From Cloacibacterium sp. TD35 (lineage in GTDB: Bacteria > Bacteroidota > Bacteroidia > Flavobacteriales > Weeksellaceae), in assembly GCF_028864635.1 (NCBI RefSeq), contig NZ_CP104850.1, positions 248,001-312,000 on the forward strand: 64,000 bases of DNA, given 5' to 3'. The translations under genes and the position numbers were made by a program. The notes beneath the pieces were generated by a model. The model was not told the origin of the DNA and did no database searches. It saw only the letters and a program-made list of their open reading frames with translations. This document shows, in pieces, positions 15,404 to 47,358 of the stretch (the stretch's first letter is position 1; the number at the start of each line of letters is the position of its first letter).

Positions 15404-16915
15404 TTAGTGACCGTGACCATCATTAGCAGAATGCTGTTCTGTAGCTGAAGGCGCTGTCATTAAATCTGGTGCTTGAGGAACAGCAGTTGGAGCCTGTAGG
15501 CCTGAAGCTTTGTTTAATGCATCTACTAAGGCTGGATCTGCTATGTTTAGGTAAGTTTTACCTGCAATTTTTCCATCTTTATCGATGATGATGAAACTTG
15601 GCATTTTAAACCCATATATTGCAAATTTCTGAGCAATTTCAGATTTCATACCACCCGTTGCATAATAATTATTTCCTTGAACTCCTGTAAACATCGCTTT
15701 AGAAGTTTTCACGAATTGGTGTTGTGTATCATCTAAATTGATGAATGCAAAATTCATTTTTGAACCATAAAACTTCACCATTTCCTTTAGAACAGGAAGC
15801 GTACTTTCTGAAATATAAGGATTCCATGAAGCGTAGAATACTAATGCTGTAGGTTTTCCTTTAAGGTCTGCTAAAGTTGTTTTTTTACCGTCTTGTTTTA
15901 CTACATTTAAACTAGAAACATCTGTTCCTTGCTCAATTCCGTAAATTGCTTCTTCTAAATTTTTTAACTCTGATTTAATTGCAGAATTTTTGATTTTAGT
16001 ATCCAAAAATTTGAAAACTTCTTGTAATTTAGGATTTGCTGGCTCTCTCAAATCATATTGAGCCGCTACAGCAGCAATAAGATATTCTTTGGTTTTATCT
16101 GAAAGATCTTTTTGAGTATCTAAGAATTTAGAGAACATTTGAACATTAGAAGTAGGAGCGGTATTTTTTTGGCTTTCGAAGAATTTTTGGAAACCTGCAC
16201 TCAATTTGCTGATGTTATAAGTTCTATAGTTAGGCATATCTTCGATATAGTTATCGTTTTCAAGACCTTTTTGGAATGCCAATAATTTAGCACCTGCTTT
16301 ATACTTAGGGTCATTGGTAGCTTGACCATGCATGTTTTCGTATTGAGAAGAAATCATCAATAAAGTAACATCTAATTCTCTTTTATTGAATTTTTCTACA
16401 TCGCTATCTGGTTTTTTAACCTTAGCGATTTCATCCATTTTTTTAGAAATATCAGTTTTATATTTTTCTAATTCTTTTAAGAAATCTTCTTCTTTTTTAG
16501 TAATGATTGATTGGTCTAATTTAGACATGTATTGATTAATGAATTGCTGAGACTCCATTAAGTATTCTGTATTTCCTTTGGCATCACCAGAAATTTTCAT
16601 TCCTTGTGGGAAAAGCATTGCTTCAAAATCAATATTTACTTGATCACCACCTTTTAGATAAAGGAAGCCTGTGTTTCCACCGTAAGTAATTACGTATACT
16701 CCGTCTCTAGGGATTTCTACTGTTTCTGAGAAATTTCCTTTGGCATCTATACCAAAATTAGCAATAGGTAAAGTTGCAATTCCTGAGGCTTCTATAATTT
16801 CTAATCTTTCTAATGGAGAACCATTAGTCACTTTACCATTTATGGTTACTTTGCCACCTTTAGAACATGATAGCAGTAAAATGGAGAATAAGAATAATAA
16901 AAAATATTTTTTCAT
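15404..16915 (-). CDS. TlpA-like lipoprotein (DUF4369 plus thioredoxin fold) lacking the CxxC
   Basis: 503 residues from ATG 16915; the frame stays open 11 codons upstream but MKKYFLLFLFSILLLSCS is a clear lipoprotein signal (lipobox LLSC). The N-terminal region resembles DUF4369 (KVTINGKVTNGSPLERLEI), the middle is helical and charged, and the C-terminal about 150 residues form an AhpC/TSA-TlpA thioredoxin fold (ALVFYASWNPY...). At the redox site the usual WCxxC reads WNPYI, so both cysteines are absent and it should not act as an ordinary thiol oxidoreductase. A Pro/Ala-rich tail ends HSANDGHGH, which could bind metal. TATTTTTG (16950-16957, minus) is a candidate -7 element. Role unknown, probably periplasmic and membrane-anchored. 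Confidence 0.82.
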   Translation of the reverse strand: MKKYFLLFLFSILLLSCSKGGKVTINGKVTNGSPLERLEIIEASGIATLPIANFGIDAKGNFSETVEIPRDGVYVITYGGNTGFLYLKGGDQVNIDFEAMLFPQGMKISGDAKGNTEYLMESQQFINQYMSKLDQSIITKKEEDFLKELEKYKTDISKKMDEIAKVKKPDSDVEKFNKRELDVTLLMISSQYENMHGQATNDPKYKAGAKLLAFQKGLENDNYIEDMPNYRTYNISKLSAGFQKFFESQKNTAPTSNVQMFSKFLDTQKDLSDKTKEYLIAAVAAQYDLREPANPKLQEVFKFLDTKIKNSAIKSELKNLEEAIYGIEQGTDVSSLNVVKQDGKKTTLADLKGKPTALVFYASWNPYISESTLPVLKEMVKFYGSKMNFAFINLDDTQHQFVKTSKAMFTGVQGNNYYATGGMKSEIAQKFAIYGFKMPSFIIIDKDGKIAGKTYLNIADPALVDALNKASGLQAPTAVPQAPDLMTAPSATEQHSANDGHGH

Positions 16916-16949
16916 TTCTTTAAAAAAGTTGTTTTTAATTTTAATCACG

Positions 16950-16957: not shown

Positions 16958-17019
16958 TACTTTTAGTTTTATTTGCAGAAAAAAACTTTGTGTTTTGGGA
17001 AAGTTTTAACGAAAAATCT

Positions 17020-19143
17020 TTAGATACTCTTGATTTTTGTGTCATCTATTTTGTAGATTTCTTTTGAAATAAGTACCAAATCTTCTAGATGATGGCTGAT
17101 GATAAAAATTATTGTTTTTTCTTTTAACCTATTAAGTAGTTGATAAATAAAATCTCTATTTCCTTTATCTAAAGAAGAGGTAGGTTCATCTAAAATTAAA
17201 AATTGAGGAGTATGGTATAATGCACGAAGCCATCCAAGAAGTTGCTTTTGCCCGCCTGAAAGATTGACTCCTTCTTCTCCTACAATAGTTAAAATATTTT
17301 GAGGAAGAGAATTAATGAATTTTTCAAAACCTAAGTTAATAACATTTTGAAGTTTTTGTTCATCCAAATGCTCATCTAAAATAATATTTTCTAAAACTGT
17401 TCCATTAAATAATTGAATATTCTGTGGAACAACTGAAATGTGTTTTCTCCAATTAGAAATAGATATTTCGCTTAAATTAATACTTGTATTGATTGTTATT
17501 TCTCCTTTTTCTTGAATATAATTCTTTTGCAAAATCTCCGCGAAAGTAGTTTTACCACTTCCGCTTTCACCGAGAAGGCATGTAATTTTACCTTTTTCTA
17601 GTTTCAAAGAAACATTATTAAGCAGTTTACCTCTTCCGTTAAATCTAAAATCTAGATTCTTAACTTCTATACTTTCTATATCTGAAACCTCTTTGCCTTC
17701 TGTTTTCTCTTTAGGTATTGAAGAATATTCAAACATTCTATCAAAAGCTACTTTAGCTTCTTGAATCGGAATGCTTACTAATGCCAGATTGGTAATAGAA
17801 GAAAGTAAAGAACTTGCAATACCAATAATTGCCATTAGTTCTCCTACTTTTATTTCATTATTTAGAACATTGTATGATGAGAAACTTAAAATAGTTACAA
17901 GAAAAACTACTAAAGCTAAACCCGAATAAAGTGCAATCTTAAGATTTAGCCTCCCCAATTCAAATATTTTGGTTTGAAAATTCCCAAAGATTAAGATATT
18001 TTTTTTTAAGAATAAATCTTGTTTGCCAAAACCTTTTATTACATCTATTCCTCTTATGCTGTCAATATAGTTCGCTTCATTAATACTATAAGATTGCATC
18101 ACATCTTTTTGAGACTCTATGATTTGTTTATTGAATCTAAAAATAATGTAAAAGATAATAGGTGAAATTACCAAACATACTATTGTTAATTTCCAAGAAT
18201 AATAAAATAAAAACCCAATTGAAATTAAGACCCCTAAAACATCTACCGCAGTATTGGTAATTAATTGCTTTATTACAGCTTGTATTCTTTGGGTATCATT
18301 AAGTCTTGCCACAAAGTCACCAATTTTTCTGGTGTCAAAAAACATTTTGGGTAGATGCAATAAAGAAGAAAAGAAATTTTTGTTAATCCTTTGATTAAAT
18401 TCCTTGCTTTGTTTTATGATATAAAACTCTCTTAAAGCCTGTATAATTAATCTAGCAAATAAAAGAAAACTTAAAAAGCCAATACTTAATAATAGTACAT
18501 TCAGTTTCTTTTTGGGTAAAATATCATCTATTAATTTCTGTGAAAAGATATACATAGACATCCCAAGAAGAGTAAATATAACGCCTAAAACTATAATGGT
18601 ATAAATAGACTCTTGGTCTTCTTTTACCAAATTAATCAACCATTGTTTTTTCTCTGAATTGGTTTTTTCTTTTTTTTCAAAATGCTCATTTGGTTTTAGG
18701 GTAAGACAAGTTTTAGAAACCCATACTTTTTCTAAATCTTCTTGAGTCCAATATTCTAAACCTTTGGTAGGATCTCCAATAAGAAATTTATAATCTCCAT
18801 TATGATTATAAGAATAATAGATGACATAGTGCTCGTATTTTTGGTCTATTATTACATGTAAAATTACAGGTTCTCCGTGTTCTATTAAGGCGTTAATATC
18901 TGCTTCGCAACCGTCAGCATTAAAACCAATTGCATTAGCACATTGGTATAAACCTAAAAGTGTAGTTCCTGTTTTGCTAGTTCCGCTTTTTTCTCTGAGT
19001 GTTTCTAGTGAAATGTCTCCGCCATAATATCTAACTAAAGATTGCAGGCAACCAACTCCGCAATCTGTTAAATCTTTTTGAAGAGAAAAAGTTTTTTTTA
19101 TCTGAGTTTCGAGTTTCGGAGAACGAGATTCGAGTTTAAACAT
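17020..19143 (-). CDS. Peptidase-containing ABC exporter (C39 peptidase, membrane domain, ATPase)
   Basis: 707-residue bacteriocin-type exporter that cleaves double-glycine leaders and pumps the peptide across the inner membrane. Domains: C39 peptidase (about 19-140) with Cys28 in QKDLTDCGVGCL, His105 in YEHYVI and Asp124 in LIGDP, an intact triad; six-helix exporter membrane domain (about 175-450); ATPase with Walker A GESGSGKTT, signature LSGGQ, Walker B LILDEPTSSLD and the H-loop IISHH. The first 15 or so residues (MFKLESRSPKLETQ) are encoded by five degenerate 7-bp repeats directly after the ATG. Upstream genes encode a thioredoxin-like protein, small membrane proteins and a GG-leader peptide, its probable cargo. 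No HlyD-type adaptor is nearby. Confidence 0.93.
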   Translation of the reverse strand: MFKLESRSPKLETQIKKTFSLQKDLTDCGVGCLQSLVRYYGGDISLETLREKSGTSKTGTTLLGLYQCANAIGFNADGCEADINALIEHGEPVILHVIIDQKYEHYVIYYSYNHNGDYKFLIGDPTKGLEYWTQEDLEKVWVSKTCLTLKPNEHFEKKEKTNSEKKQWLINLVKEDQESIYTIIVLGVIFTLLGMSMYIFSQKLIDDILPKKKLNVLLLSIGFLSFLLFARLIIQALREFYIIKQSKEFNQRINKNFFSSLLHLPKMFFDTRKIGDFVARLNDTQRIQAVIKQLITNTAVDVLGVLISIGFLFYYSWKLTIVCLVISPIIFYIIFRFNKQIIESQKDVMQSYSINEANYIDSIRGIDVIKGFGKQDLFLKKNILIFGNFQTKIFELGRLNLKIALYSGLALVVFLVTILSFSSYNVLNNEIKVGELMAIIGIASSLLSSITNLALVSIPIQEAKVAFDRMFEYSSIPKEKTEGKEVSDIESIEVKNLDFRFNGRGKLLNNVSLKLEKGKITCLLGESGSGKTTFAEILQKNYIQEKGEITINTSINLSEISISNWRKHISVVPQNIQLFNGTVLENIILDEHLDEQKLQNVINLGFEKFINSLPQNILTIVGEEGVNLSGGQKQLLGWLRALYHTPQFLILDEPTSSLDKGNRDFIYQLLNRLKEKTIIFIISHHLEDLVLISKEIYKIDDTKIKSI
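19104..19138. repeat. Five degenerate heptamers inside the start of the ABC exporter gene
   Basis: Plus strand reads GAGTTTC GAGTTTC GGAGAAC GAGATTC GAGTTTA, ending two bases from the start codon at 19141-19143. The same heptamer family (ATTCGAG/ATTCTTG) occurs at 50434-50489. Confidence 0.7.
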
Positions 19144-19154
19144 TTTCTTGTTTT

Positions 19155-19212
19155 TAAATTTTGGCTAAAGCCATTTGCATTTTTGAAATTTGAAAACGGG
19201 CTTTAGCCCGAT
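19155..19212. repeat. Paired GGCTAAAGCC / GGGCTTTAGCCC palindromes
   Basis: Two short palindromes (19163-19172 and 19197-19210) separated by an AT-rich loop fill the spacer between the exporter and the thioredoxin-like gene. GGGCTAAAGCCC...GGCTTTAGCC elements are, from memory, dispersed intergenic repeats in flavobacteria. Confidence 0.6.
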
Positions 19213-19213
19213 C

Positions 19214-19735
19214 CTATTGATAAACATTGAAATCCTTTAAAACTTTCTCTATTTTTATAGCGCCTGTACTGCGGTGTACCAATTTATTATTTTTATTGTA
19301 ACCTAAGAAATAAGGAATACCCGTCATTGCAAATTGTGTATAAACTTCTGCTCTAGGGTCTGTACACCATTTGATATTCTCTGCATTTTGCAAGTTGTAC
19401 TTTGTTGCAAAATTTTTAATTTCTGCTATACTTTGGCTACTAAACATAATCCATTGCATATCTAGATGTTTATTATTAATAGAAGAAAGCTCTTGCATCT
19501 CTGCTTGGCAATACTCACATTCTGGATTGAAATACACCAACAGTTTATTGCCTTCTTGTAAATTTTTGTTAGTAATAGTAACACCATTGATATCTTTTAC
19601 GGAAAAAGTAGGAATACTTTTCAATGCTTCTACTTTTGTTTTTTTGCTTTGATAATTGGTAAAAAGATACACCATTACTCCTATTAATACTGTAGGAATG
19701 GTAATGGCTAATATTTTTAAAGTTTTATTTTTCAT
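19214..19735 (-). CDS. Membrane-anchored thioredoxin-like protein with CxxC
   Basis: 173 residues. One N-terminal membrane segment (about 7-26, ILAITIPTVLIGVMVYLF) anchors a periplasmic AhpC/TSA-type thioredoxin fold. The redox motif CEYC (Cys73, Cys76) is intact and the cis-Pro region is GIPYFLGYN. Likely a thiol-disulfide oxidoreductase. Its place between small membrane proteins and the C39 exporter, downstream of a peptide gene whose product has two cysteines, suggests a role in making or proofreading a disulfide in the exported peptide. That role is inference. Confidence 0.82.
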   Translation of the reverse strand: MKNKTLKILAITIPTVLIGVMVYLFTNYQSKKTKVEALKSIPTFSVKDINGVTITNKNLQEGNKLLVYFNPECEYCQAEMQELSSINNKHLDMQWIMFSSQSIAEIKNFATKYNLQNAENIKWCTDPRAEVYTQFAMTGIPYFLGYNKNNKLVHRSTGAIKIEKVLKDFNVYQ

Positions 19736-19759
19736 AATCAGTAATGCGGCATAGGTTTC

Positions 19760-19910
19760 GGAGGCGTAAAGAAAATTTTAAAATATTACGTTAAAAAATC
19801 TTTATTGTTTGAGCGAAGCGAGTTATAAAGATTTTAGAAATATTTTAAAATTTTTAGCCGAGAAACCAAGCCTTGATTTTTTGGTTCTTTTGTATCAAGA
19901 CAAAAGAACA
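19760..19910 (+). repeat. Long intergenic repeat, copy 1
   Basis: About 150 bp beginning GGAGGCGTAAAG, with TTGTTTGAGCGAAGCGAGTT in the middle, then TTTTTAGCCGAGAA and ending TTGGTTCTTTTGTATCAAGACAAAAGAAC. A clearly related copy lies in opposite orientation at 47210-47358. From memory the element is widespread in Chryseobacterium and relatives. No coding capacity seen. Confidence 0.85.
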
Positions 19911-19915
19911 TTATA

Positions 19916-20557
19916 TTAATAAGAAACACTAAGTATCAAGAAACACACTACCCCTACCCAAAAGAGTAAACCTATACCATAAGTAAGCGCAACATAACCT
20001 AGAGACCTCTGGTAAGAAATCTTTTTATCTGCCAGTTGCCATATCCCCCAAGCTAAAACGCCCCAATACATCAGCTCAAAAACATTTACCAATTGCAATG
20101 GATAAGCCAACCATTTTTCTGTAGAGATGGCTTCTTTATAGTTAATAAGCGAAAGAGGATAATACGTTTGTAGAGTTTCTAATGTATAATCTGTATCTAT
20201 TAAATAGAAATTAAAAAACTTATAAAACCCTGCTATAATAAATACGAACTCTGCTATCAATACTACCGTAAGTATATCTCTAAACTTTACATCTTCTAGC
20301 TTCTCACTAATTATTTTTACAAAATTTAAACAAAATGCTACCAGCAACACTTTAATACCAATAAGTACAGGCGTTGTAGCATAGCTTACCCACCACCATT
20401 TTTTTTGGCTCTCCATATAATTTTGTACTACAGAACTGGGGTATTTATTTGCCAAATAATCAAAAATTTTAGATTCTGTTGCAATAAAATTCGAATCTAA
20501 AAAAGTTAAAGTATAGTATATAATTATAACGACAAAATATAATAATAACTTTTTCAT
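19916..20557 (-). CDS. Unrecognised multi-pass membrane protein in the peptide locus
   Basis: I do not recognise the family. 213 residues from ATG 20557 (an in-frame ATG at 20572 would add five residues; the 20557 start is chosen because the truncated paralogue at 20906-21076 starts at the matching MKKL). About five hydrophobic segments: 4-20, 68-88, 100-122, 150-172 and 188-211. A short extracytoplasmic-looking stretch, YPSSVVQNYMESQKKWWWVSY, follows the first helix. It lies between the small membrane protein and the thioredoxin-like gene; candidate immunity or accessory protein, but no function can be assigned. Confidence 0.72.
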   Translation of the reverse strand: MKKLLLYFVVIIIYYTLTFLDSNFIATESKIFDYLANKYPSSVVQNYMESQKKWWWVSYATTPVLIGIKVLLVAFCLNFVKIISEKLEDVKFRDILTVVLIAEFVFIIAGFYKFFNFYLIDTDYTLETLQTYYPLSLINYKEAISTEKWLAYPLQLVNVFELMYWGVLAWGIWQLADKKISYQRSLGYVALTYGIGLLFWVGVVCFLILSVSY

Positions 20558-20575
20558 TAATTGATTAGTCATTAT

Positions 20576-20860
20576 TTATGATGAAATATCAAATAATATA
20601 AAAGTAAAGAAAGCTGAAATTACAAGTATCTTAATTTTCTTTTTCTTCTCATTTTCTTTTTCTTTACTACCTATATTTTCGCTCAAAATCTTATTATTAA
20701 TATTTTTTTTATTAGAATCTATAAGTTCAGAAGTTATTATAAAAACAAAACTAAAGGCCAATAAAAATATATTATATTTTGGTTGATATTCCATTAAAAA
20801 ACAAAAAACATATGAAACCAAAAACACTAATGCTATATTTTTTAAAACTTTTTTTAACAT
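20576..20860 (-). CDS. Small unrecognised membrane protein
   Basis: 94 residues, ATG start. Hydrophobic segments near 6-23, 30-45 and 74-92 flank a very charged linker with EKENEKKKKIK. The gene begins about 45 bp downstream of the truncated membrane-protein copy and ends just before the next membrane-protein gene, so it fits the same transcript. Small membrane proteins of this kind often act as immunity proteins in bacteriocin loci; that is only an inference from position. Confidence 0.6.
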   Translation of the reverse strand: MLKKVLKNIALVFLVSYVFCFLMEYQPKYNIFLLAFSFVFIITSELIDSNKKNINNKILSENIGSKEKENEKKKKIKILVISAFFTFILFDISS

Positions 20861-20905
20861 AATTTAATGTTTATTTAAATAAAAAAAACATGTTAATAAT
20901 AGAAA

Positions 20906-21076
20906 CTAGATAAAATCTTTTAATTTGCTCTCCATATAGTTTTGCACTACAGAACTCGGATAATCTTTTGCCAGGAAATCAAAGATTTTGGAGGAAGTGG
21001 TGATGTAGGTTTTATCTAAAAATACAAGAAGTGAATATAAGAATATAATGAAAATAAATGTTATGAGTTTTTTCAT
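20906..21076 (-). pseudogene. Truncated tandem copy of the 213-residue membrane protein
   Basis: A 56-codon frame (ATG 21076, stop TAG 20906) that aligns with the first 50 residues of the full-length gene at 19916-20557: both start MKKL, share FLD, SSKIFD/ESKIFD and the identical segment YPSSVVQNYMES, then the copy diverges to KLKDFI and stops. The start codon overlaps the upstream gene's stop (ATGA). It is either a decayed tandem duplicate or a short single-helix protein kept in its own right. Below the usual gene-calling size. Confidence 0.75.
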
Positions 21077-21591
21077 GGACTATTATCAATTCTTTTTTTT
21101 GAAAAATCAACAGCTTTGATATATATTAATTTTTTGAATTTTTCAATTGTTTTACTGAAAACATTGTACAATCTTCTTTGATAAAAAGTATTTATAAAAA
21201 TTTTATTGTCCTCACATATAAATACAATAAACTCTTTATCGGCTCTATGTTGGAGTTCAAACATATACAGTCCATCTATAGTTGGAGACTGATAAACACA
21301 TTTCTGCTTTTCAGCAATATCTTTAATGATTCTAATGTTTTCTTCACAATGTAGATTTGTTTTAATGACTTTAAAAAAACGATTGTAAAATAATAAGACT
21401 AATATAAAAAGAGGAATTAATATAGTGATATTAATTAAAATAAAACCGTTATTAATAATTGAAATGATAGGAAATATTAGTAACAATAAAAAATTAAATA
21501 ATAAAAATTTTTCATTCAAAGAAAAAGGAAGAAAATATTGATTAAATATTTTTTTTATTTTTCTTTTATTAGCAATATCTATATACTTCAT
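21073..21591 (-). CDS. Unrecognised membrane protein next to the GG-leader peptide gene
   Basis: 172 residues from ATG 21591 (MKYIDIANKRKIKK). The frame extends to a TTG at 21627, but that would start inside the hairpin between it and the peptide gene. Basic, probably cytoplasmic N-terminus, two adjacent hydrophobic hairpin segments (about 30-49 and 52-70), then a soluble domain of about 100 residues rich in Lys, Ile and Phe. I recognise no family. First gene after the peptide, the position often taken by the immunity gene in bacteriocin operons, so that is the working inference. Very AT-rich, more than the housekeeping neighbours. Confidence 0.65.
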   Translation of the reverse strand: MKYIDIANKRKIKKIFNQYFLPFSLNEKFLLFNFLLLLIFPIISIINNGFILINITILIPLFILVLLFYNRFFKVIKTNLHCEENIRIIKDIAEKQKCVYQSPTIDGLYMFELQHRADKEFIVFICEDNKIFINTFYQRRLYNVFSKTIEKFKKLIYIKAVDFSKKRIDNSP

Positions 21592-21619
21592 TTCAAGTTT
21601 ATAAAAATAATTTTTTACT

Positions 21620-21652
21620 AAAGACAACCCACAACGTGTATGGGTTGTCTTT
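21620..21652. terminator. Hairpin after the GG-leader peptide gene
   Basis: Stem AAAGACAACCCA / TGGGTTGTCTTT with a loop of about nine bases, 16 bp beyond the peptide stop. The longer T run lies on the plus-strand side, so on the minus-strand transcript it may act as a partial terminator, attenuator or stabilising 3' end that gives more peptide mRNA than downstream mRNA. Confidence 0.65.
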
Positions 21653-21667
21653 ATTTTTTAGATTAAA

Positions 21668-21823
21668 TTACTCACAAAGCAACATACCTACTCCAAAAAT
21701 GAATATACCTGCACCACCAGCCAAAGCAGATGCTGCAGCCAAAAAGCCAGCATATACATATGTACATTTAGGTCTTTTACCCCCTTGCAAATTTTCCATT
21801 TGCGAAATTTCTAATTTTTTCAT
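21668..21823 (-). CDS. Double-glycine-leader peptide (bacteriocin-like precursor)
   Basis: A 51-residue product not called because of its size. The N-terminus MKKLEISQMENLQGG is a textbook GG leader (hydrophobic Leu, Ile, Met and Leu at the spacing C39 peptidases read, then Gly-Gly). Cleavage would release a 36-residue core starting KRPKCTYVYAG, with Ala/Gly-rich hydrophobic helix (GFLAAASALAGGAGIFIFG) and ending GMLLCE. Cys20 and Cys50 could form a disulfide bridging the ends. Small-residue GxxxG/AxxxA patterns resemble class II bacteriocins. A C39 exporter and CxxC protein are encoded downstream on the same strand. Bacteriocin versus signal peptide cannot be decided from sequence. Confidence 0.85.
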   Translation of the reverse strand: MKKLEISQMENLQGGKRPKCTYVYAGFLAAASALAGGAGIFIFGVGMLLCE

Positions 21824-21973
21824 GCTTGTTTAAAATTTAATATTAATAATTTTTTTAGCACTTTTGTTTTTTGCAAAAGCTGTACTCAAAGGTTAGAAAT
21901 AATTAACTGTTTTAAAAATATTTTTTGTAGAAATAAAAACATCTAAGTGTAGAAATATTACTATACATTAATA

Positions 21974-22007
21974 TAAAAAGACTCCCAAAATTTGGGAGTC
22001 TTTTTAT
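21974..22007 (-). terminator. Terminator after sdhB
   Basis: Symmetric hairpin AAAAAGACTCCCAAA / TTTGGGAGTCTTTTT directly downstream of the sdh operon; insulates it from the peptide gene, which needs its own promoter in 21824-21973. Confidence 0.85.
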
Positions 22008-22027
22008 AACATATAGTATTGATATGG

Positions 22028-22798
22028 TTAATCTACTGTAGTAAATTTAGCCGCAAGAAATTCTCTGTTCATTCTAGCGATGTTTTCTAGAGAAATTCCT
22101 TTAGGACATTCTATTTCGCAAGCCCCTATATTAGAACAGTTACCGAAGCCTTCTTCGTCCATTTGTTTTACCATGTTTAGCACTCTTCTCTTCGCTTCTA
22201 CTCTACCTTGTGGTAAAAGGGCAAACTGAGAAACTTTAGCGCCTACAAATAACATTGCAGAACCGTTTTTACAAGTGGCTACACACGCTCCACAACCGAT
22301 ACAAGCTGCAGCATCCATTGCTTTGTCTGCATCTTCTTTAGGAACTGGGATTGCGTTTGCATCTAATGTATTTCCTGAAGTATTTACAGAAACGAAACCA
22401 CCTGCAGCCATAATTCTGTCAAATGCGCTTCTGTCTACTACCAAGTCTTTGATTACTGGGAAAGCAGCACTTCTCCAAGGTTCAATAGTGATGGTTTCAC
22501 CATCTTTGAACATTCTCATATGCAATTGGCAAGTTGTAATTCCTGTATCTGGACCGTGAGCTCTACCATTAATGTACAATGAACACATACCGCAGATTCC
22601 TTCTCTACAATCGTGGTCGAATGCTACTGGTTCGCTTCCGTTATTTACCAATTGTTCGTTTAGCATATCTAGCATTTCAAGGAAAGAAGAATCCGTAGAA
22701 ACATCTGATATTTTGTAGGTCTCGAACTGACCTTTTGATTTATTATTTTTCTGTCTCCAAATTTTTAGAGTCAGGTTTAATCCTTTTTTTGCACTCAT
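22028..22798 (-). CDS. sdhB: Succinate dehydrogenase/fumarate reductase iron-sulfur subunit
   Basis: Electron-transfer subunit of respiratory complex II, on the cytoplasmic face of the inner membrane. 256 residues. Cluster ligands are all visible: [2Fe-2S] in CREGICGMC with a later Cys in ITTCQL, [4Fe-4S] in [14 protein letters not shown], and [3Fe-4S] in [15 protein letters not shown]. The order sdhC-sdhA-sdhB with a 22-bp gap to sdhA is the Bacteroidota arrangement. Last gene of the operon, followed by a terminator. Confidence 0.97.
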
Positions 22799-47194: not shown

Positions 47195-47209
47195 ATATTT
47201 TTATTTATA

Positions 47210-47358
47210 TTCTTTTGTCTTGAAACAAAAGAACCAAAAGTTCAAGACTGTGAATTCTCGGCTAAAATTTTTCATTAATTCTAAAATCCCTGAAACTCGC
47301 TTCGCTCAAACAGCAGGAATTTTTTAACTAATCAATTTCAAAATTTTTTAACGCCTCC
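47210..47358 (-). repeat. Long intergenic repeat, copy 2
   Basis: Read on the minus strand it starts GGAGGCGTTAAAAAA, passes TTGTTTGAGCGAAGCGAGTT-like TGTTTGAGCGAAGCGAGTTT and AATTTTAGCCGAGAA, and ends TTTTGGTTCTTTTGTTTCAAGACAAAAGAA. Related to 19760-19910 throughout. Lies between paaJ and paaY inside the paa cluster. Confidence 0.85.

Follow-up and report, generated by a model that had tools for sequence, protein, structure and literature searches.

A candidate bacteroidetocin-type bacteriocin locus with variable peptide cargo in Cloacibacterium sp. TD35

Gene content of the sdhB-tlp interval

We analysed a 64,000-nucleotide stretch of the Cloacibacterium sp. TD35 genome (2.6 Mb, single contig NZ_CP104850.1; G000:C1:248001-312000), called the window hereafter and used for all coordinates below, and studied in it a putative locus for the maturation and export of a small peptide with a double-glycine (GG) leader. 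This locus of about 5 kb fills the gap between sdhB (22028-22798, minus strand) and tlp (15404-16948, minus strand), whose lipoprotein product has a redoxin-like domain. Alignment with the empty sites of congeners places the extra DNA at approximately 17018..22018; the site is empty in all six congeners compared (G001-G006), where the gap measures 114-116 bp. The interval contains, all on the minus strand and in this order from the sdhB side, a peptide precursor gene, a membrane protein gene (mem184), a 56-amino-acid remnant, a second membrane protein gene (mem94), a third (mem218), a thioredoxin-like gene and the gene of an ATP-binding cassette (ABC) exporter with a C39 peptidase domain. The original prediction, made from the letters of the DNA, had placed these features at the same positions on the same strand, and the list of open reading frames (ORFs) and the domain scans agree with it. 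The exporter and the thioredoxin-like protein score above curated Pfam cut-offs; the precursor, mem184, the remnant, mem94 and mem218 score above none.

The precursor gene (21668..21823, minus strand) encodes 51 amino acids, namely a 15-residue GG leader followed by a 36-residue glycine-rich hydrophobic core with two cysteines (Cys20 and Cys50). Among 320 genomes of the family, this peptide scores above 100 bits in three only, i.e. the present genome, G136 (82% identity) and G276 (76% identity), the next best match reaching 36 bits; the search models for the precursor and for mem184 were built from these three positive genomes themselves. Both cysteines are invariant across the three sequences. 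Since the two homologues, kept in frame, come from genomes of another genus, the ORF is more than a chance frame. Over 50 codons (one unaligned codon dropped), the raw counts of synonymous and non-synonymous differences, uncorrected per site, are 19/9 against G136, 13/12 against G276 and 14/5 between G136 and G276. Synonymous differences prevail against G136 and between G136 and G276, and the two kinds are about even against G276. Purifying selection on a translated gene would give such counts, the first and the last comparison being the clearer ones.

The neighbouring gene mem184 (21073..21591, minus strand) encodes 172 amino acids from its ATG, or 184 from the TTG of the ORF list, with two predicted transmembrane (TM) helices and a C-terminal beta-rich part. 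It scores above 280 bits in the same three of the 320 genomes as the precursor, which it adjoins in each of them, and the next best match falls to 72.5 bits. Because high-scoring full-length homologues occur only in the three genomes carrying this core peptide, mem184 is the best candidate for a cognate immunity protein. A search of the PDB with its structure model gave no match at E <= 0.001, and the top matches, many of them metallo-beta-lactamases, look meaningless.

The prediction had also listed three small membrane-protein genes plus a truncated copy of one of them, and all are present. The truncated copy (20906..21076, minus strand) overlaps the end of mem184 by 4 bases and is an N-terminal remnant of a mem218 gene, with a 75-nucleotide repeat at 80% identity to the mem218 of the locus. 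The 94-residue membrane protein mem94 (20576..20860, minus strand), encoded directly upstream of mem218, is an orphan: its own genome matches at 178.6 bits, and the 22 other genomes of the 320 with a match at E <= 0.01 stay at or below 20.9 bits. It is possibly the immunity gene of a lost or replaced peptide. The third protein, mem218 (19916..20572, minus strand), has 218 residues from the first ATG and 213 from the methionine at which most relatives begin, and its model contains five long helical stretches. No Pfam Yip1 match above the gathering score was obtained for mem218; two of eight relatives scanned gave sub-threshold matches over nearly the whole domain (E 6e-4 and 3e-3), and a profile comparison with four Yip1 proteins was unsupportive, so that membership is a lead at most. 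Thiol chemistry by mem218 was rejected as well, as in ten diverse rows the sole column with at least three cysteines is not invariant.

The last two genes encode recognisable enzymes. The membrane-anchored TlpA/thioredoxin-like protein (19214..19735, minus strand) matches AhpC-TSA (1.6e-10) and carries CEYC at residues 73-76. The exporter (17020..19143, minus strand), 707 amino acids long and of the peptidase-containing ABC transporter (PCAT) type, matches Peptidase_C39 (5.9e-28), ABC_membrane (1.5e-33) and ABC_tran (8.5e-29); its best NCBIfam match, TIGR01193 (peptide cleavage/export ABC transporter), lies below cut-off. Gln22, Cys28, His105, Asp124, Walker A, LSGGQ and Walker B are all there, and the claim that Cys28, His105 and Asp124 are intact thus holds. 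No core-modifying enzyme family of the lanthipeptide or other ribosomally synthesized and post-translationally modified peptide (RiPP) kind was found by Pfam and NCBIfam among the eight window proteins scanned. A scan for sigma-70-type promoters showed no enrichment (28 found, 28.9 expected from shuffles), nor did the DNA preceding the three precursor genes (window, G136 and G276) match a Bacteroidetes-type promoter pattern.

A constant module with variable cargo

Relatives of mem218 were found in 22 of the 320 family genomes and in 28 of 395 genomes sampled from the phylum. At 21 of the 22 family loci, the order mem218, thioredoxin-like gene, ABC exporter is kept, two of the 21 having an extra small gene between; the remaining locus, in G294, has a frame-broken mem218 and neither a thioredoxin-like gene nor an ABC gene within the 9.7 kb retrieved. 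G024 and G335 have exporters whose reading frame is split. The CxxC motif is kept in all 21 thioredoxin-like rows of the family (20 genomes, one represented twice), and the catalytic Gln22, Cys28 and His105 are invariant in all 19 aligned exporter rows (18 genomes, one twice), Asp124 having been looked at in the window protein only. The survey of the phylum, made with models from the family loci, covered 20 regions from 19 other genomes, with 7 further matching genomes left out; in 11 of these regions mem218 is accompanied by matches to the thioredoxin-like protein and to the exporter, the frame of the latter being split in two of the 11. Homologues of the small proteins had been proposed as a check of co-occurrence with the exporter: the 213-residue protein indeed accompanies it at 21 of 22 loci and the precursor and the 172-residue protein go together in 3 of 320 genomes, whereas the 94-residue protein stands alone.

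The cargo, in contrast to the machine, differs from locus to locus. At 20 family loci we counted 36 leader-bearing peptides, at least one per locus, with a pattern that set no demand for cysteine and allowed leader ends besides GG; the locus of G046 and that of G024, which a contig end interrupts, are outside this count. All 36 have at least two cysteines in the core, the background being 0.9% of residues in window proteins of at least 200 amino acids. Exporters always paired with different, unrelated cargo had been named as an argument against the locus; cargo does vary among loci, yet at 20 of 20 it is a small, leader-bearing, cysteine-containing peptide. Clustering of the cores gave families common to 2-5 genomes. 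Three pairs of core families are co-located at the same loci, in the manner of two-peptide bacteriocins, one pair being incomplete in G184, which has a relative of one peptide and lacks the other. Two families show the clearest linkage to a membrane protein: the window's core family, which goes with mem184 in 3 of 3 genomes, and a two-peptide family accompanied by a protein of 80-93 amino acids in 5 of 5. Considering also G184, and G309 with a small membrane protein that clusters apart from the one of G201 and G276, this linkage is clean for two families and less so elsewhere.

Some related loci have a different surrounding. On the Flammeovirga pectinis plasmid NZ_CP034564.1 (L212, 38000-50575), genes for a mem218 relative, a redoxin and an ABC transporter are followed by GLPGLI and LanC-family genes according to the record annotation, suggesting that the same export module may also serve modified peptides. 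On plasmids, mem218 relatives were found on two Flammeovirga plasmids only, and the exporter had no plasmid match at the strict limit of 1e-100. A distant relative of the locus in G075 (L024) comprises several GG peptides and extra ABC genes, with response-regulator-like and histidine-kinase-like genes, named by reading, alongside.

Exporter phylogeny and the peptide cassette

In an exporter tree of 18 genomes, the window sequence pairs with that of G110 (support 96/99 with outgroup, 98/99 without). An exporter clade of the three genomes sharing the same cargo (the window, G136 and G276) was rejected by the approximately unbiased (AU) test (p-AU 7.8e-5); this group was defined by cargo, though after a first tree had been seen. 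The cargo of G110 is different, being a two-peptide one common to G167, and grouping the exporters of G110 and G167 was rejected too (p-AU 6e-67), as was the cargo group G201, G276 and G309. For the five genomes with both peptides and the 80-93-residue membrane protein, exporter grouping was not rejected (p-AU 0.166), so this group is evidence for linkage and not for transfer.

The loci of the window and of G110 occupy an identical site, between sdhB and the lipoprotein gene. With an identical site, sister exporters and unlike cargo, a swap of cassette with retention of the machine is the simplest reading of these sequences. The related genomes suggest that a peptide and its probable protector move jointly, as an exchangeable unit served by a conserved export apparatus. 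In G255 the sdhB-tlp site holds a relic, in which a leader-bearing peptide and a 158-amino-acid ABC fragment are all that was recognised. The site might have been occupied ancestrally and then emptied, or filled repeatedly.

The mem218 remnant might keep a trace of such an exchange. It corresponds approximately to residues 6-58 of full mem218 and is identical at 32 of 53 positions (60%) to the copy of its own locus and at 38 of 53 to the best mem218 genes of genus g20, in four of which a 20-residue stretch of the remnant is found identical. After mem184, a full mem218 follows in G276, and in G136 a 66-amino-acid gene comes before mem218. The remnant is possibly a scar of cassette exchange or of duplication; it would fit an arrival of precursor and mem184 along with a piece of mem218 from a donor, but the tree of this short piece does not decide, as the remnant joins the window's own mem218 weakly (85/46) while its placement in the donor clade was not rejected (p-AU 0.129). 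Segment identities revealed no clear mosaic. A similar remnant of 58 amino acids, ending near the same residue, is present in G294 (L066), at the decayed locus with the frame-broken mem218, which has two peptides.

Interpretation as a bacteroidetocin-type locus

The original prediction presented this system as a candidate undescribed one, but its kind is known. According to Coyne et al. 2019 (PMC6671954), the regions of bacteroidetocins (A-D and relatives) comprise a C39-ABC transporter, a thiol oxidoreductase, a GG-leader peptide and a five-TM protein of unknown kind. The GG-leader peptide, the oxidoreductase, the C39-ABC transporter, the 15-residue leader and the cysteines in the peptide are common to both, and mem218, with five long helical stretches in a low-confidence model, would be the fourth counterpart, that of the five-TM protein. 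Relatives of bacteroidetocins in four classes of Bacteroidetes all have leaders of 15-16 residues and at least two cysteines (PMC6671954). Judged by its genes, the locus would belong to class IIf (bacteroidetocin-type), having a C39-ABC transporter, an AhpC-TSA/CEYC thiol oxidoreductase gene, a 15-residue GG leader and two core cysteines. The flanks of two published regions are dissimilar (PMC6671954), and those of the present loci vary too. The published order is TM protein, peptide, oxidoreductase, ABC transporter (PMC6671954), whereas here the peptide gene precedes the TM gene, further membrane genes separating the two. Among the papers listed in literature searches, none deals, by its title and the start of its abstract, with flavobacterial relatives that have immunity genes, though the supplements of PMC6671954 may list such loci; the flavobacterial form of the bacteroidetocin-type locus looks new.

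Class II bacteriocins of Gram-positive bacteria (the pediocin-like IIa and the two-peptide IIb) also combine a GG leader, a C39-ABC transporter, a small hydrophobic glycine-rich core and a linked small membrane protein, and several related flavobacterial loci likewise carry two peptides, as in class IIb. The dedicated oxidoreductase and the five-helix protein set the present locus apart from class II. The YGNGVxC motif of class IIa was absent from the core when read directly, and bacteroidetocins do without it as well (PMC6671954). Colicin V-type and Caulobacter Cdz-type systems, as far as compared, use type I export and share the GG leader, the C39-ABC exporter and a small glycine-rich cargo; unlike them, the present locus encodes no HlyD adaptor. 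Genome-wide, 14 HlyD_3 matches, none of them in the window range, and 26 OEP matches were obtained in the search that the prediction had called for. Near the family loci, a search with two query proteins found HlyD-like genes at 2 of 21 only, on the opposite strand and 5-6 kb from mem218. The predicted absence of HlyD from the locus is thus borne out; the need for an export partner from another part of the genome is not established, since four bacteroidetocin genes gave toxin activity from E. coli (PMC6671954), secretion or lysis as the way of release being left undecided in that article.

We consider it probable that the locus encodes a bacteroidetocin-type bacteriocin (unmodified, GG-leader, cysteine-containing and class II-like) which is matured and exported by the module, with mem184 protecting the producer and an exchangeable cargo cassette. 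The C39-ABC exporter would recognise the precursor by its leader, cut after Gly15 and export the 36-residue core from the cytoplasm. Cys20 and Cys50 would then be joined in the periplasm by the membrane-anchored CEYC protein, with mem218 possibly assisting maturation or export as a partner in the membrane. Cleavage and export, the disulfide and the help of mem218 are suggested by the intact motifs and by the published relatives, from which the cleavage site, the antibacterial activity and the need for mem218 and the thioredoxin-like protein are likewise inferred. Deletion mutants for the peptide, the TM protein or the oxidoreductase had weaker toxin activity, and neither the TM protein nor the oxidoreductase protected a sensitive strain (PMC6671954). 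As full activity required the published TM protein, which did not protect, mem218 most likely serves in maturation or export rather than in immunity. The proposal of a GG-leader, bacteriocin-like peptide with a module for its maturation and export, and with one or more good candidates for an immunity gene, stands in part, with the 218-residue protein assigned to the conserved module and the 94-residue one as an orphan. The locus would then be modular, with mem218, thioredoxin-like protein and ABC exporter as constant machine and the precursor with its cognate immunity gene as exchangeable cassette.

Several observations weigh against this interpretation. Bacteroidetocins A and B have a 42-residue core with four cysteines, here 36 residues with two, and lack an immunity gene, here a candidate one is linked to the peptide (PMC6671954). 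The mem218 protein was matched to the five-TM bacteroidetocin protein (EH213_01845) only by description, and its model has low confidence (mean predicted local distance difference test score, pLDDT, of 59), as has the single-sequence model of mem184 (mean pLDDT 64). In 9 of the 20 phylum regions, the mem218 family occurs without an exporter, hence this family is wider than bacteriocin loci. Weaker homologues of mem184 (45-73 bits) exist in 7 genomes of genus g21, none carrying mem218; six of these genes are close to an ndk-like gene by reading, no module genes appear in the stretches viewed, and mem184 was probably recruited from this wider family. In G219, a 53-amino-acid mem184-like fragment beside a different peptide speaks against strict linkage. 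Few events lie behind the co-occurrence of precursor and mem184, as two of the three genomes belong to one genus. Activity and disulfide, finally, are predicted from genes and published relatives, and immunity from linkage.

From co-occurrence alone, we lean towards mem184 as the immunity protein for this peptide. Alternatively, the locus could be intact and antibacterial while protection comes from mem94, from the export module or from nothing, mem184 acting otherwise, for instance as an aid to this core. Mem94 is encoded immediately before mem218, relatives of mem184 occur in the absence of a bacteriocin, and bacteroidetocin producers inhibit themselves, no immunity gene having been seen in their regions (PMC6671954, PMC8546649). 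However, mem94 was not found in the two other genomes with the same core, and the published TM protein and oxidoreductase did not protect (PMC6671954), which makes this alternative unlikely in our view. Our judgements on mem184 and on this alternative overlap and are not shares of one whole.

We find it improbable that the peptide is an exported pheromone-like GG signal, the small membrane proteins being receptors or accessory parts rather than immunity proteins. Peptides with GG leaders and C39 exporters also serve signalling (ComC/ComA), XRE-like regulator genes (by reading) lie near some related loci, and the G075 locus has response-regulator-like and histidine-kinase-like genes beside its module. 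No sensor kinase or response regulator was found, however, among the eight window proteins scanned, and diverse cores, loci with at least two different peptides and membrane partners changing with the peptide fit toxin/immunity turnover better. Moreover, published relatives kill (PMC6671954); bacteroidetocins A and B act on Bacteroidetes, with BamA as reported target (PMC8546649). Equally doubtful is a decaying remnant no longer making an active product, as the truncated mem218 copy, the orphan mem94, the gaps of 180 and 70 bp around the thioredoxin-like gene and the decay of related loci (G294, the G255 relic, the split exporter frames of G335 and G024) might suggest, since precursor, mem184, full-length mem218, thioredoxin-like protein and exporter are all open, full length and intact in their motifs, and precursor differences are mostly synonymous in two of three comparisons.

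Retaining the bacteroidetocin-type bacteriocin as the preferred explanation, we give about an even chance to a broader one, a flavobacterial plug-in platform in which one mem218, thioredoxin-like and C39-ABC machine serves single- and two-peptide toxin/immunity cassettes swapped from strain to strain and from genus to genus, the dedicated immunity proteins (mem184 and one further family or more) being a feature that gut bacteroidetocins lack. Should mem184 and the other membrane proteins linked to cassettes confer immunity, self-protection in this class could be tested directly, and the loci would supply a collection of candidate antibacterial peptides. They would also illustrate how such a platform diversifies, cargo and protector changing while the machine stays.

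Some further features were recorded. Of the nine exporter-less mem218 regions of the phylum, six (L116, L117, L119, L120, L121 and L122) lie near the gene of a protein of about 400 amino acids that looks conserved by eye, two of their mem218 relatives giving sub-threshold Yip1 matches; one has neither this gene nor a C39-similar protein. In the other two (L114 and L115), mem218 stands beside a C39-similar protein of 450-480 amino acids and an XRE-like regulator gene (by reading), with a glycine-rich small peptide also in L114; Pfam finds no ABC domain in the C39 protein of L115, and the two loci may be a variant that lacks the usual exporter. Elsewhere in the genome of the window (L026, G000:C1:2522000-2537000) is encoded another ABC exporter of the C39 type, 30% identical and with an HlyD_3 adaptor, where several GG-leader cysteine-rich peptides lie next to large proteins which, by reading of their sequence, resemble a lanthipeptide cluster (LanB/LanC-like). 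Within the window, a 30-base palindromic sequence occurs twice with 2 mismatches (19880-19909, inside the gap between mem218 and the thioredoxin-like gene, and 47209-47238; none in 100 shuffles), and a Flavo-1 RNA (RF01705, 63.8 bits) is located at 2317-2405.

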